A stretch of DNA of 64,000 nt. Origin: Chlorobiaceae bacterium. Lineage in GTDB: Bacteria > Bacteroidota > Ignavibacteria > UBA10030 > SZUA-254. The notes below the pieces were generated by a model. That model worked only from the letters and a program-made list of their open reading frames with translations, did not search any database and was not told the DNA's origin. The stretch is taken from NCBI GenBank assembly GCA_013824245.1, contig PNNN01000073.1, positions 1 to 64,000 on the forward strand. Reading direction: 5' to 3'. The stretch's first letter is position 1; every line of letters starts with the position of its first letter. The position numbers and the translations under genes are program-made. Below, piece by piece: positions 33,066-38,761 of the stretch.

Positions 33066-33236
33066 GATTCCGCGTCACGAGGCGAGCAAATAGCTGCGGA
33101 ACGGTTTGCAGATTTGCGATGGGCGGGCTTTTTAGCACAAATGTTCATTTGGAGAACTGCACTTCCTTTAACCACAAAACTGTCTGCAAAGGACGAAACC
33201 CTGCCTATTGCAAATGTGCTGTTAGCTGCTCCCTGC
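33066..33236. repeat. Palindromic spacer P1 (attC-like) between rpmE and the Abi_C gene
   Basis: ATTTGCGATGGGCGGG (33112-33127) is imperfectly complementary to the segment 33199-33215 (CCCTGCCTATTGCAAAT). A 22-base stretch at 33082-33103, ending GCTGCGGAACG, matches P2 (34230-34251) at 20 of 22 positions in the same orientation. No gene of its own is supported in this 326-base gap; a short open frame here lacks signals. It resembles a recombination site between gene cassettes. Confidence 0.6.
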
Positions 33237-33288: not shown

Positions 33289-34134
33289 TTATCCATTTTT
33301 TCCCTTGCGTTTAAGTTCAAATGTTTCCAGTAAGAATGTCGCAAGTGTAACACCTGCACCAACAGTCAATCGAGCATGCCTTTCATTTAATCCTTTTCTC
33401 TTTTTGTCTTTACCATGTCCAGTGCCGTATAAATTTCGGAGTTCCGCAACTTTAATCACAACTTGTCCAAGATTACTCAAAAGCACTTTTATAATGTCTG
33501 CCCCTTTCTTTGCATCATCAACATCGTCTGGAACAAGATCAAGAGCTTTCTGAACTTGTTTAAGGAGTTTGGGAATATCATCGTCTTTGTCAGCAGGAGT
33601 TTTTAATTCTGTCAAAATAGTTTTGAGTGTAGCTTCAACAAGTTCTTTTGTTGAACCGATTGCAAGCCCTGGGTCTTGGTCAATAGATTTCTTTATCCGT
33701 TCAATATATTCCTGAAAATGTCCTTTATCTAAAAGGTCAGTTGCATTTTCTAAATTGTCAAAACTTACTACCTGACCAACAATAGAAATTTTCCCGTTGT
33801 CAAATTGATAACCGTCTTTGAACAAAACTTTGGTCAACTTATCAATCCAAGTTTGTCTAATGTTTGCATTCCACGAGTCGGTTGTGCCTGTGAGGTCAGA
33901 AAGAATGTCCGCATACACATTAATTACTTGACGAACTTGCTTAGTATTTGTCCAATCAACGCTGGCGTAATATTGTGCAACTTGACGTCTCCTTTGTCCA
34001 GATGGTAACTTCTCTGCTGGCAATTGAGTAAATTGAATATCGTGGTTGTCAAAATATCTTTTAATTTCTCTAATTGTCGTTGACACAAGAAACTCTTGAA
34101 ATTCACTCCTCGTCTTTTTGCTTATTAAATCCAT
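33289..34134 (-). CDS. Abortive infection C-terminal domain (Abi_C) protein
   Basis: A 281-residue cytosolic protein whose C-terminal half (about 150-275) has the Abi_C pattern: DPGLAIGSTKELVEATLK, then ELRNLYGTGHG and RHARLTVGAGVTLATFLLE. Family members are linked to phage exclusion; the mechanism is not known. The N-terminal half is helical and unrecognised. No clear ribosome-binding site precedes the ATG. The gene is bracketed by palindromic spacers P1 and P2, an arrangement typical of a mobile cassette. Its defence role is inference from the family. Confidence 0.8.
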   Translation of the reverse strand: MDLISKKTRSEFQEFLVSTTIREIKRYFDNHDIQFTQLPAEKLPSGQRRRQVAQYYASVDWTNTKQVRQVINVYADILSDLTGTTDSWNANIRQTWIDKLTKVLFKDGYQFDNGKISIVGQVVSFDNLENATDLLDKGHFQEYIERIKKSIDQDPGLAIGSTKELVEATLKTILTELKTPADKDDDIPKLLKQVQKALDLVPDDVDDAKKGADIIKVLLSNLGQVVIKVAELRNLYGTGHGKDKKRKGLNERHARLTVGAGVTLATFLLETFELKRKGKNG

Positions 34135-34196: not shown

Positions 34197-34350
34197 TAAT
34201 GTTGCGCGGCGTACCTCGCGAAACCAGTCGCGAGCGAATGGCTGCGGAACGTTTCGGCAAACAACGCAATATTTTTGAGCGATGCTTTTTTATTCATTGG
34301 TCTTTTCTTCGAGCGTTGTTATTTTGACTGTTATGCACCGCGCAACATTT
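34197..34350. repeat. Palindromic spacer P2 (attC-like) between Abi_C and DUF4145 genes
   Basis: Outer stem AATGTTGCGCGG (34198-34209) is exactly complementary to CCGCGCAACATT (34338-34349). Inner stems are CTCGCG/CGCGAG (34215-34220 and 34229-34234) and AACAACGC/GCGTTGTT (34260-34267 and 34313-34320). The left end CTAATGTTGC is shared with P4. The length and nested, imperfect pairing are like large integron attC sites, but the canonical core GTTRRRY was not found. Confidence 0.7.
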
Positions 34351-34375: not shown

Positions 34376-35059
34376 TTATGTTTTTGTCTTGCTTGAGTTA
34401 ATTGCACTCTGACGCAAGAGAGCGGCTTGTTTAATTTTTCCAGGTCGAGTATAAAGTTGATATGTTAAATCTTTGAGTAAGGACAATAAAACATCTGCAC
34501 GCTCAGAAGTAACATCTGGGAGGTGTGGGTGTGAACCATCGTGACCCGATAGCATTATCTGATACGCAAGTTCTTTCCACTCATCACCGAGTCCAGAAGT
34601 TTTAATCATATCTTCGATCTGTGTCTTGATTTTCGTGGTCGCATCTGCTCCAATATTTACACATATGGCTTGAGTAGCTCGTCTGCAGACGGCCGCGAAC
34701 CCATTAAATGCACTAACCGACAGACAATCAAGCGCTTCTTCTATTTCAGTTTTCACGCTTTCCGGTACATGTTCGAACTCGAAGAGTTCTTTAATAGAAC
34801 TTACTACTTTGGGGCTAGTAACAATAGGGCGATTACCATTCCAACCTGTTATTGTCCATTGAATCGGGAGGGGAGCAAGACAATTGTCGCAAGAATAGGA
34901 TGCAATAAACTGTTTGATTTTATCCGGCCCCAAGATATCAGATTTAACGTTTGTCACTAGTGTAAATCGAGATGCAACTCTACACTGGGGACACACACAC
35001 CCCGGACGAAGCTCAATTAAGGCGGTAGGAGGCTGATCACCGAAGAAGGTTATTTGCAT
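34376..35059 (-). CDS. DUF4145-like protein with N-terminal zinc ribbon
   Basis: A 227-residue protein of unknown function. CVCPQCR and CDNC near residues 21-60 look like a split zinc ribbon. The C-terminal part has the DUF4145 helical pattern (FNGFAAVCRRATQAICV, then SGLGDEWKELAYQ and HDGSHP). DUF4145 is often found near restriction or defence genes. The start at 35059 is chosen because AGGAG lies seven bases ahead of it; an upstream in-frame start adds ten residues without a ribosome site. It lies between palindromes P2 and P3. Confidence 0.75.
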   Translation of the reverse strand: MQITFFGDQPPTALIELRPGCVCPQCRVASRFTLVTNVKSDILGPDKIKQFIASYSCDNCLAPLPIQWTITGWNGNRPIVTSPKVVSSIKELFEFEHVPESVKTEIEEALDCLSVSAFNGFAAVCRRATQAICVNIGADATTKIKTQIEDMIKTSGLGDEWKELAYQIMLSGHDGSHPHLPDVTSERADVLLSLLKDLTYQLYTRPGKIKQAALLRQSAINSSKTKT

Positions 35060-35120
35060 TGAAAGCTCCTGTATAGTAATTAAGGGCAAAATTAATAATT
35101 CGTTTTATAAACACATTTCC

Positions 35121-35281: not shown

Positions 35282-37027
35282 TTATTTAAGTAAAAGAAAT
35301 ATTTTAGTATTTGTGTAATCTTTTGTTTGCAACCTGTAAAAGTACATACCACTTGTCAGCATAGAACCATCAAATTGAATCTCATAACTTCCCATCTCTT
35401 TTTTCTCATCCGCCAAAGTCGCAACTTCTTGACCTAAAAGATTGAACACTTTGAGTGTAACGTACGATGCCTTTGGAAGATCGAACCTGATTATTGTTTT
35501 TGGGTTGAAGGGGTTGGGGTAGTTCTGTAATAGAGAATAATGATTAATAATATCCCCGGGACTGAAGATTCCATTCTCGCTTTCCTGGTGAAGTTCCGAA
35601 TCCATTCCGTAGTACTTTCCCTGCGAAGTCTGGACTACCGCTCGATAATGATATATGGTTCCTGATTCTAGCCCATGAAGTTCGCGAATATGTTCGGATA
35701 CGGCAAATGATTGGGCCAGACTGTCTGGTTCAGTTGACGATTCGTACAATGTAGATGTACCCCATTCAAACCATGTAGTACCATCAGATCCGTTGGGGTT
35801 GATCACTGATGTCAGGAGGTTTTGCATCGAAGATTGTAGCGAATCCGTTTTTGCGAGGATGCTCGGGCGGAAGTTGATTTGTTTGGGGTGCTGTGCGATG
35901 ATGGTCACTAATCCTATACTCGCATTGTTCAAGGTGAAGGAGTTTGTCGTTCGCATATCCACCGTATCTTCGAACGTTGTCATTGTCACTGGTCCCGTAT
36001 AGAACTCCTGGATGTTCTGCCATTGGAACACAATAGGGAAATGTTTCTCTAATGCAATGAGTCGAATTTTAAATGTATCCGACTGGGACTCGGAGAAGAA
36101 CGGATGTATGTCGATGTAGGATCCATCGCTAAGATCAGGTCCCAATCCGTGGTGGCCGCCTATGAATCGGATATCCCAATCCGGACCGGGAGGTGGCAGT
36201 AGGTTCTCTCCAAGTATATAATCGTAGGAGTAGTGTGCATAGGAATGTACACCGAACGCAAGATTTGGTCGATACAATCCTCCGTATGCTTTGATGGCCA
36301 CAGGGATAGCGAAGGAGGTTACGCTCGAGTCGAATTGCGTTCGAATATTGACGGACCGTATCTTTTGTATAACAGATGGCAGGAGTTGACTCTGGAGGGA
36401 AGCAGAACATGGATACTGCTGGTACGGCATTAAATCATCGAATAGAAAACTGAGCGTTGTGTCATCCGGTAAAGCAGGTAGGGTAATCGTTCGGACATCC
36501 CGATTCGGAGGATCCATGGACCAGCCGCACCGCAATGTGGTCGGTGCGCCATTTGTTTTTACTCGCACACTCGCATGGAACGATGTGTTTGTTATATTAT
36601 CGAAAACCGGTTTGTACAACGCGGGCGATACGGTAGCAACACGGCGTTGGCACAATTGCGGATGTGTATATGTGAACGGGGTATCGACGCCATTATCGAC
36701 GCAAAACCAATAATAAATATCGTCTCTACAAAATTTGCCTTTCGATTCTCGAAACTCGACAAAGGTGGTATCTTTAGGCGGATCATTCATTCCGTAAACA
36801 TATGACCAATGCCAATCCCCATCCCAGTAAGAATTCCAGTATCTTCCCCACTGGCCGAATGTTTTGAACGCAGCACGAAAGACGAGAGTATCGGGGGAAA
36901 TACTATCATAATAGGCATAAACTATCTCAGGGGGCTGAGCCTGAACTCTACTCAAACTACAGCAGAGGGTAACTATTTGGATAAGCAGTACGAATAAACT
37001 GGAATTGAATCCGGAATAAGTTTTCAT
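35282..37027 (-). CDS. Secreted protein with T9SS sorting domain
   Basis: A 581-residue exported protein. The signal peptide (about 1-30, FVLLIQIVTLCCSLSRVQAQ) is followed by beta-rich, fibronectin-like segments; SVINPNGSDGTTWFEWGTS with SGTIYHYRAVVQTSQGKYYG (about 410-475) is a fibronectin-type repeat. The C-terminal 85 residues form a Por sorting domain (LQNYPNPFNPKTIIRFDLP, LLGQEVATL, TSGMYFYRLQ, ending KIFLLLK). AAGGAG lies seven bases before the ATG. No enzyme motif was seen. It lies within the palindrome-delimited block, between P3 and P4. Confidence 0.82.
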   Translation of the reverse strand: MKTYSGFNSSLFVLLIQIVTLCCSLSRVQAQPPEIVYAYYDSISPDTLVFRAAFKTFGQWGRYWNSYWDGDWHWSYVYGMNDPPKDTTFVEFRESKGKFCRDDIYYWFCVDNGVDTPFTYTHPQLCQRRVATVSPALYKPVFDNITNTSFHASVRVKTNGAPTTLRCGWSMDPPNRDVRTITLPALPDDTTLSFLFDDLMPYQQYPCSASLQSQLLPSVIQKIRSVNIRTQFDSSVTSFAIPVAIKAYGGLYRPNLAFGVHSYAHYSYDYILGENLLPPPGPDWDIRFIGGHHGLGPDLSDGSYIDIHPFFSESQSDTFKIRLIALEKHFPIVFQWQNIQEFYTGPVTMTTFEDTVDMRTTNSFTLNNASIGLVTIIAQHPKQINFRPSILAKTDSLQSSMQNLLTSVINPNGSDGTTWFEWGTSTLYESSTEPDSLAQSFAVSEHIRELHGLESGTIYHYRAVVQTSQGKYYGMDSELHQESENGIFSPGDIINHYSLLQNYPNPFNPKTIIRFDLPKASYVTLKVFNLLGQEVATLADEKKEMGSYEIQFDGSMLTSGMYFYRLQTKDYTNTKIFLLLK

Positions 37028-37210
37028 CGCAATCTCCTTGAGGTGTATAACAATCTAAATTCAATTATTGTCTTTGATTTACGAGTAACATTTTCTTCAT
37101 CCTCACGAACGTACCAAACTGCAACTGGTAGGAATATACACCACGCTCGCAAGGGTAGTTTCATCAAACTAAGCTCCAACCTCTTGCTTTTCTACACAAG
37201 GGTATTTCGG

Positions 37211-37313
37211 CTAATGTTGCACGGGAAGTCTCCCTCCTTCGTCGGGATAAACTCCGTGTGGGTGAACGTGAGCTTCTTTTTCTCACAATTCAGCCACACG
37301 CATTGCAACATTA
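37211..37313. repeat. Palindromic spacer P4 (attC-like)
   Basis: Three nested stems are visible: TAATGTTGC (37212-37220) with GCAACATTA (37305-37313), CGTGTGG (37255-37261) with CCACACG (37294-37300), and GTGAG (37268-37272) with CTCAC (37282-37286). The left end GGCTAATGTTGCACGG is nearly the same as that of P2 (CAGCTAATGTTGCGCGG). Confidence 0.7.
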
Positions 37314-37381
37314 AATTTTTTCTTTTCTGGTTATTCATCTAATATTTTATTTTTATCTTTTATCGAAAAGCTTATCATCAT

Positions 37382-37498
37382 ACTCACGCAGTCCAAACAT
37401 TCCTTCACTTGTCCGCCGAAACTAACATGTCCACCAAAGCGGGACGCGTAGGTGGAAAGCGCAGGCGGAATCTATCCAACGAATCCATAAGCGTGAGT
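37382..37498. repeat. Palindromic spacer P5 (attC-like)
   Basis: Three nested stems: ACTCACGC (37382-37389) with GCGTGAGT (37491-37498), TCCGCC (37412-37417) with GGCGGA (37464-37469), and TCCACC (37430-37435) with GGTGGA (37451-37456). It lies directly beyond P4. Confidence 0.65.
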
Positions 37499-37740
37499 TC
37501 CCATGTTTCAACCCATCAAAATCGTGTTATGCAAATTACAAAACTGGTGGGTTATTGTCAAGCAATCTTTCGCCTTTCTACTCAACTTCTTATTATTTCT
37601 TGTAGGGTTTTAAATTCTTTCTTCTTCCCCTCCGTTTTTCAATACCCCCTAAATAAATCATTTTTCCACACCCTCAATTATTGCATAATTTTGAGGGGTC
37701 AAAACGGCTACATGTAAAAACCTGCTGTTTTGGGCATAAT

Positions 37741-38328
37741 CCTATGTCGGATCGTCGCATTCCTACATCGCATCGTCGCATTCCTACATCGCATCGTCGC
37801 ATTCCTACATCGCATCGTCGCATTCCTACATTGCATCGCCGCAATCCTATATTGCATCGCCGCAATCCTATATTGCATCGTCACGTTCCTACATTGCATT
37901 GCCTCAATCCTATATTGCATCGTCGCATTCCTACATTGCATCGTCGCATTCCTACATTGCATTGCCGCAATCCTACATTGCATCGTCACAATCCTATATT
38001 GCATTGCCACGTTCCTACATTGCACTGCCGCAATCCTATATTGCATCGTCGCAACTGCGAACGGAATTGTCGCAACTGCGAACGGAATCGTCGCAACTGC
38101 GAACAGAATCGTTACAACTGCGAACGGAATTGTCGCAACTACGAACGGGATTGTCGCAACTGCGAACAGAATCGTCGCAACTGCGAACGGGATTGTCGTA
38201 ACTCCGAACGGAATCGTCGCAACAGCGAACGGAATTGTCATAACTACGAACGGAATCGTCGTAACTGCGAACGGGATTGTCATAACTACCAACGGGATCG
38301 TCGTAACTTTGAACGGGATTGGAAAGAC
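37741..38328. repeat. 588-bp array of 28 tandem 21-bp units in two subfamilies
   Basis: Units 1-15 (37741-38055) follow CCTACATTGCATCGTCGCAT plus a final T, with frequent C/T and A/T changes. Units 16-28 (38056-38328) follow TGCGAACGGAATCGTCGCAA plus a final C. The two families share the phase and the CGTCGCA core, so the change happens without a break. Because 21 is a multiple of three and the units lack stops, long frames stay open on both strands; no ribosome site or start supports any of them. In the second family the dyad TCGCAACTGCGA (first at 38049-38060) recurs every 21 bases, intact in five of twelve places. Confidence 0.95.
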
Positions 38329-38338
38329 CAAATAAGAA

Positions 38339-38385
38339 GTGCGACTCACCTGCACATTTGAATCTTCGATGGAGGTGAGTCGCAC
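38339..38385. repeat. Perfect 13-bp hairpin at the right edge of the array
   Basis: GTGCGACTCACCT (38339-38351) is exactly complementary to AGGTGAGTCGCAC (38373-38385). It begins 11 bases after the last 21-bp unit. Confidence 0.8.
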
Positions 38386-38399
38386 ATGGCATTAAAGTA

Positions 38400-38446
38400 G
38401 AACTCCGACTTTTTCCACAGCATAACGGAATCAAAAGTCGGAGTTC
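38400..38446. repeat. Hairpin of the CTCCGACTT family, copy 2
   Basis: GAACTCCGACTTTT (38400-38413) is exactly complementary to AAAAGTCGGAGTTC (38433-38446). The stem core is shared with 22039-22087. Confidence 0.8.
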
Positions 38447-38601: not shown

Positions 38602-38690
38602 GTGTCATTCCCGAATGCTTCTATCGGGAATCCAGAATTCTGGTAAAATCTGGGCACTGGACTCCCGCTTAAAACACGCGGGAGTGACAT
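38602..38690. repeat. MITE/REP-like element with terminal inverted repeats
   Basis: The ends GTGTCATTCCCG and CGGGAGTGACAT are near inverted copies. Inside are TTCCCGA/TCGGGAA, the perfect palindrome CCAGAATTCTGG (38632-38643), and ACTCCCGC/GCGGGAGT. Elements of this GTCATTCCCG type are common intergenic repeats in many genomes. Confidence 0.7.
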
Positions 38691-38761
38691 TAAAGAACTT
38701 TATGGTCAATCCAGAATAAAGGAGTGGTCTCTTCTAATAAATTATCGGGTAAATGATGATC

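Follow-up and report, generated by a model that had tools for sequence, protein, structure and literature searches.

A tandem array with a strict 21-bp period lies beside the promoter of a putative decayed integron in the stretch of DNA analysed here (64,000 nucleotides of a Chlorobiaceae bacterium, contig PNNN01000073.1, hereafter the window). The array belongs to a class of fast-turning tandem arrays that keep the 21-bp period strictly, and it is a member specific to its genus. Together with its leader, R2, it sits outside a divergent integron promoter; the recombinase gene of that promoter is deleted, and putative cassette genes remain behind the promoter. Elsewhere in the phylum, arrays of the same period and of unrelated unit sequence occur just upstream of a protein family termed X. 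The arrays belong to a little-known class in which the 21-letter rhythm is kept while the letters change completely; no literature on 21-bp arrays, or on arrays beside integrons, was found among open-access PMC papers. While the identity of the array is well supported, its mechanism is something we infer, including the steps that lead from association to function. Our leading reading, held tentatively and drawn from sequence, is that the array is a phased cis-element of an undescribed array-plus-X module and probably serves as a platform for phased binding close to a promoter.

Architecture, leader and turnover of the array

TRF returned period 21 at 37751–38053 (score 389) and 38048–38321 (score 338), with 0% indels in both. 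Read from 37751, the plus strand carries an A block of 14 tandem 21-bp units (37751–38044; consensus ATCGTCGCATTCCTACATTGC) and, in the same register, a B block of 13 units (38045–38317; consensus ATCGTCGCAACTGCGAACGGA), i.e., 27 full units across 37751–38317, followed by a degenerate tail unit (38318–38338, plus strand). The initial annotation had counted 28 units, 15 of the first family and 13 of the second; the tandem array is real, but the count comes down to 27 full units plus edges (14 A and 13 B), because the first row, at 37741, was half leader and the last was degenerate. The change from A to B without a phase break, reported at the same time, is confirmed by this unit reading and the lack of indels, as is the shared core, ATCGTCGCA being common to A and B units. 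In most arrays the 42-bp higher-order period is stronger than the 21-bp one (lag 42 > lag 21), so the units alternate in pairs. Two hairpins, each of a dispersed family and not assigned to a strand, lie to the right (GTGCGACTCACCT/AGGTGAGTCGCAC, 38339–38385; AGAACTCCGACTTTT/AAAAGTCGGAGTTCT, 38400–38446). Hairpins had earlier been placed on both sides of the array; the right-hand pair is real and recurs at sister loci, whereas the left one (37671–37697) is part of the conserved leader. A dispersed repeat (GTCATTCCCGAATGCTTCTATCGGGAATCC...) at window positions 38604–38708 has further copies at several other congener loci. An Rfam search gave no relevant match.

The R2 leader (37639–37761, plus strand; about 125 bp) aligns gap-free in 11 arrays and adjoins a gappy spacer. 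The window array is one of 12 in the genus that share it, with six matches in the window's genome (G000), six in a congener (G001) and none in 38 other genomes. The leader pattern found no match in 84,980 species or viral contigs, from which records near the window genome may be left out. Both genomes contain additional arrays, whose units are related or different. On a 793-kb congener contig (G001:C6), all four strong 21-bp arrays belong to the R2 element family, and control periods of 15–27 yielded nothing comparable. An assembly artefact is unlikely as an origin of the window array, because an array is also present at the orthologous site of the congener and the leader is common to the sister arrays. 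Contigs C29 and C48 of G000 stop only a few hundred bases from sister arrays, and array length there may therefore be underestimated.

Comparison of orthologous loci, covering one strain per species, revealed rapid turnover. The window orthologue in the congener comprises nine units, all of B type, against 27 units of A and B type in the window, and at three other loci the array is absent or replaced: at C52 an array is matched by none at the orthologous congener site, and at C8 and C15 R2-type arrays are matched by a different, "type-2" 21-bp array. A hypervariable minisatellite was among the possibilities first proposed, and that description is apt insofar as copy number, block content or the whole array differs between orthologous loci. 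The proposal that B grew out of A is not supported: the orthologue is B-only and the congener has its A-type units elsewhere, at another locus, so that an exchange of blocks among loci explains the A/B composition better. In type-2 arrays the lag-21 identity is ~0.41 (median 0.25), 407 aligned nt, about 20% divergent, contain no indels, and the leader is unrelated, without significant homology to R2. Degenerate type-2 arrays with their own conserved leader are found beside the same promoter type, R1, at L107 5950–6500, L110 6310–6800 and L111 6000–6500; two of these arrays take the place of type-1 arrays at orthologous sites. Across these replacements the 21-bp period is retained. Cyanobacterial STRR heptamer repeats are also intergenic and have a length that is a multiple of 7; a 7-nt sub-period is nevertheless restricted to type-2 arrays here and absent from those of type 1.

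Divergent promoter, deleted recombinase gene and putative cassette remnant

R1, a conserved promoter region with the start of a 5′UTR (37487–37563, minus strand), adjoins R2 in divergent orientation and points away from the array. Its −35 (TTGACA, 37561–37556) and −10 (TAATTT, 37538–37533) elements, separated by a 17-nt spacer, were read by eye and not called by a consensus scan. R1 also lies upstream of an intact tyrosine recombinase on contig C12 of the window's genome (G000:C12) and contig C1 of the congener (G001:C1). At array loci, the 5′UTR passes directly into the last recombinase codons and the sequence behind them, i.e., the gene has suffered an internal deletion. What remains of the recombinase 3′ end is degenerate; it is weak in the window copy (37331–37361, minus strand; z about 2) and reaches z 9–39 at the deletion junction in several sister copies. 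The nearest leader-side gene is on the minus strand in 10 of the 10 loci that have sequence on that side.

An accessory island beside the array had been recognized initially, and it is indeed present, all its features lying on the minus strand. An attI/attC-like inverted repeat (TTTAATGTTGCAATGCGTG...CGTGCAACATTAGCC, 37207–37318), identified by inspection, precedes the first accessory gene, which encodes a 581-aa protein with a T9SS sorting tail (35282–37027) that had no match in the genome-contig search. Further genes encode a protein with DUF4145 (34376–35089) and an Abi_C/AbiJ-like protein of phage-defence type (33289–34134), and between them lies a 24-nt attC right half (TATTGCGTTGTTTGCCGAAACGTT, 34248–34271) with 0 mismatches to integron-cassette sites of relatives, where 0 such matches are expected by chance. 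A degenerate attC-like site (33094–33230) closes the putative remnant; it was recognized by inspection and missed by the automated scan, which returned no attC site in the window island, the other attC-like sites being likewise degenerate and visible by inspection only. In the congener the flanking core genes are the same and different genes occupy the island position. The island is best read as a putative remnant of integron cassettes, because the attC right half is identical to that of relatives' cassettes and clear attC-like sites lie behind the intact recombinases. On this reading, the window shows integron fragments with a promoter persisting as gene-swap sites that carry phage-defence genes. 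Chromosomal integrons, CALIN and In0 elements likewise have a promoter, a recombinase (here at two sister loci) and attC sites, and their accessory cassettes, too, include genes for defence; the window locus resembles an integrase-less remnant. It differs from these elements in keeping the promoter and 5′UTR, in the internal deletion of the recombinase and in the 21-bp array outside the promoter.

The intact sister loci differ from integrons in that the recombinase is co-directional with the cassettes and has no integron-integrase patch. The recombinases of G000:C12 and G001:C1 score 235.9 and 245.1 bits against TIGR02249 (cut-off 265), and their match spans only profile positions 2–179 and about 232–314, the region of ~180–232 being missing; 27 residues stand where VchIntIA (2A3V) has 67. 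Nine further homologues in the order also score below the cut-off, their best match stopping at about position 180, and no patch-sized insertion was seen in that region among 11 aligned sequences. At the same time, 3 and 4 attC-like sites lie downstream of these two recombinases, with none upstream and none in shuffles; one attC-like site each follows the recombinase in G015 and G005, and the 3′ end of the recombinase gene carries a conserved sequence, a candidate attI. As far as gene arrangement shows, the sister loci appear integron-like. We do not claim integron membership for them, because the recombinase is without the patch (I2 domain), which the literature holds to be defining and essential for integron integrases (PMC2426708, PMC7790495). 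A patch-less recombinase heading attC cassettes would provide a natural case for asking whether integron integrases can, or once could, work without I2. IntI-like tyrosine recombinases without the patch and with attC-like sites downstream are located at L045:6440-7378 and L046:6722-7645, with homologues in L113–L124. In many genomes the contig stops just past the patch-less recombinase gene, as expected before repetitive cassette arrays.

Arrays of the same period beside protein family X

A protein-level search detected more arrays of 21-bp period, built of unrelated units, in G004, G011, G013, G021, G024 and G030, and one in G031 that lies inside a long reading frame; as the search favours seven-residue periods, these hits are no proof of prevalence. 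In the congener, a type-2 array is directly followed by a gene for a 206-aa protein, X. Members of the X family (L107:6570-7187, L183–L211) are ~200 aa long and have a possible Fn3-like C-terminus, judged by eye; a genome holds as many as 13 copies, usually with a separate 21-bp array in front of each. X had no match of note in Pfam, PHROGs, PDB, plasmids or viral contigs and only a negligible one in NCBIfam.

When X copies were searched for without reference to arrays and their flanks then examined for periods of 12–30, a period-21 array was found upstream of 16 of 20 copies and downstream of 2 more. Two more distant genomes added 8 copies, all with such an array 220–450 bp upstream. In total, 24 of 28 X copies from six genomes of the phylum have a 21-bp array of unrelated sequence 220–850 bp upstream, and 3 of 400 random windows reach the period-21 score. 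Arrays that keep their period but not their sequence, tied to one uncharacterised protein family in distant genomes, suggest that spacing is under selection, a rare situation. CRISPR and other repeat-plus-protein arrays share leader-array polarity, a degenerate tail and, in relatives of the window genome, a conserved protein near the array; however, in place of identical repeats and unique spacers there are contiguous 21-bp variants of one another, with no Cas genes. No X copy was detected in the window's genome, within about 1 kb of an array or elsewhere, and its arrays are therefore orphans, an observation that runs counter to an array-plus-X module at this locus.

Candidate functions of the array

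In the cis-element reading, the conserved trait would be the 21-bp spacing, equal to two helical turns, with dyad-rich units, and not the letters. Bound partners may possibly be aligned on one face of the DNA along the array, which would probably act as a phased binding platform. Turnover of the array sequence would come from unequal recombination and from conversion among loci, and the window array, as an orphan, would be either kept or drifting beside a promoter that now serves captured cassettes. Tested against column-permuted arrays, the units have the higher fold potential in 12 of 14 blocks (Stouffer −4.1/−4.7; related arrays were treated as independent, which members of one family are not), a result in keeping with dyad binding or hairpins. 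A bolder and rather doubtful extension envisages a phylum-wide two-part system of a period-fixed, sequence-free array and an Fn3-like X acting as guide, platform or variable peptide, whose orphan arrays would be re-used beside integron promoters, together with an attC integron lineage lacking the I2/patch thought essential. The readings considered here overlap, their likelihoods need not sum to one, and we rank the cis-element first, followed by translation and a neutral repeat.

Translation is possible, if on balance improbable: the array or a recent ancestor would encode a hydrophobic heptapeptide-repeat protein (IVATANG / IVAFLHC / IVVIQYC ...) on the plus strand, in the divergent direction to the integron promoter, 21 bp being seven codons. 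One frame alone (ATC GTC GCA...) is nearly stop-free over 13 blocks (1 stop vs. 4.8 expected from column shuffles, p 0.0025), and only in that frame are substitutions amino-acid-conservative (z 3.7 when families are collapsed, 3.6 when CpG sites are left out and 4.2 on transversions, arrays within families not being independent); the other frames reach a z of at most about 1 in the collapsed test. This conservative variation is not predicted by a pure DNA element and counts against the cis-element reading. The initial annotation had dismissed the open frames as evidence of coding, rightly as regards openness itself, but the substitution test singles out one plus-strand frame. Codon-position variability in that frame follows the order 3 > 1 > 2, and the indel-free type-2 arrays also favour coding. 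However, the start codon is not conserved across array copies, an in-frame TGA stands at the array entrance in 5 of 11 arrays, the R2 leader is without coding signal, type-2 arrays give at most a hint of one, and the synonymous excess is small. The predicted product has no Pfam or PDB relative, and single-sequence AlphaFold models, with a helix for A and strands for B, give a mixture not taken as evidence of a fold, i.e., there is no common fold. An open frame shifted relative to the motif was dropped as a candidate; the I-V-S/A register was seen in G001:C1 and in the degenerate array of G006:C59.

Less probable still is a neutral minisatellite, in which slippage and unequal crossing-over amplify local sequence, and period and neighbours reflect history instead of function. 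The array shares tandem units, copy-number differences between related genomes and block homogenisation with VNTRs, and the variation in copy number and content between orthologous loci, the 42-bp higher-order units and several R1-bearing loci that have no 21-bp array are all in keeping with neutrality. Neutral amplification does not predict one period across unrelated sequences and genera, a single protein family next to the arrays in 24 of 28 cases or a gap-free leader beside a gappy spacer. The constancy of the period at 21 across such sequences and genera, and the ties to one protein family and to one promoter type, set these arrays apart from VNTRs. Least probable of all, and quite unlikely, is that the array is an integron part, either attI-like accessory sites bound by the patch-less recombinase or a regulator of its promoter: R2-type arrays in this genus adjoin the recombinase promoter region, at the intact locus G001:C1 the recombinase is preceded by an array, and in another genus the recombinase has a degenerate 21-nt array upstream of it (0/300 simulations), but the intact integron at G000:C12 has no array, units resemble the attI region no better than chance in most families, and most arrays of other genera are not near a recombinase. 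In another genus, 47-bp tandem repeats occupy the array position beside an R1-type promoter (L112:6132-6305), with the R2 core TTTTGGCATAATCCT kept.
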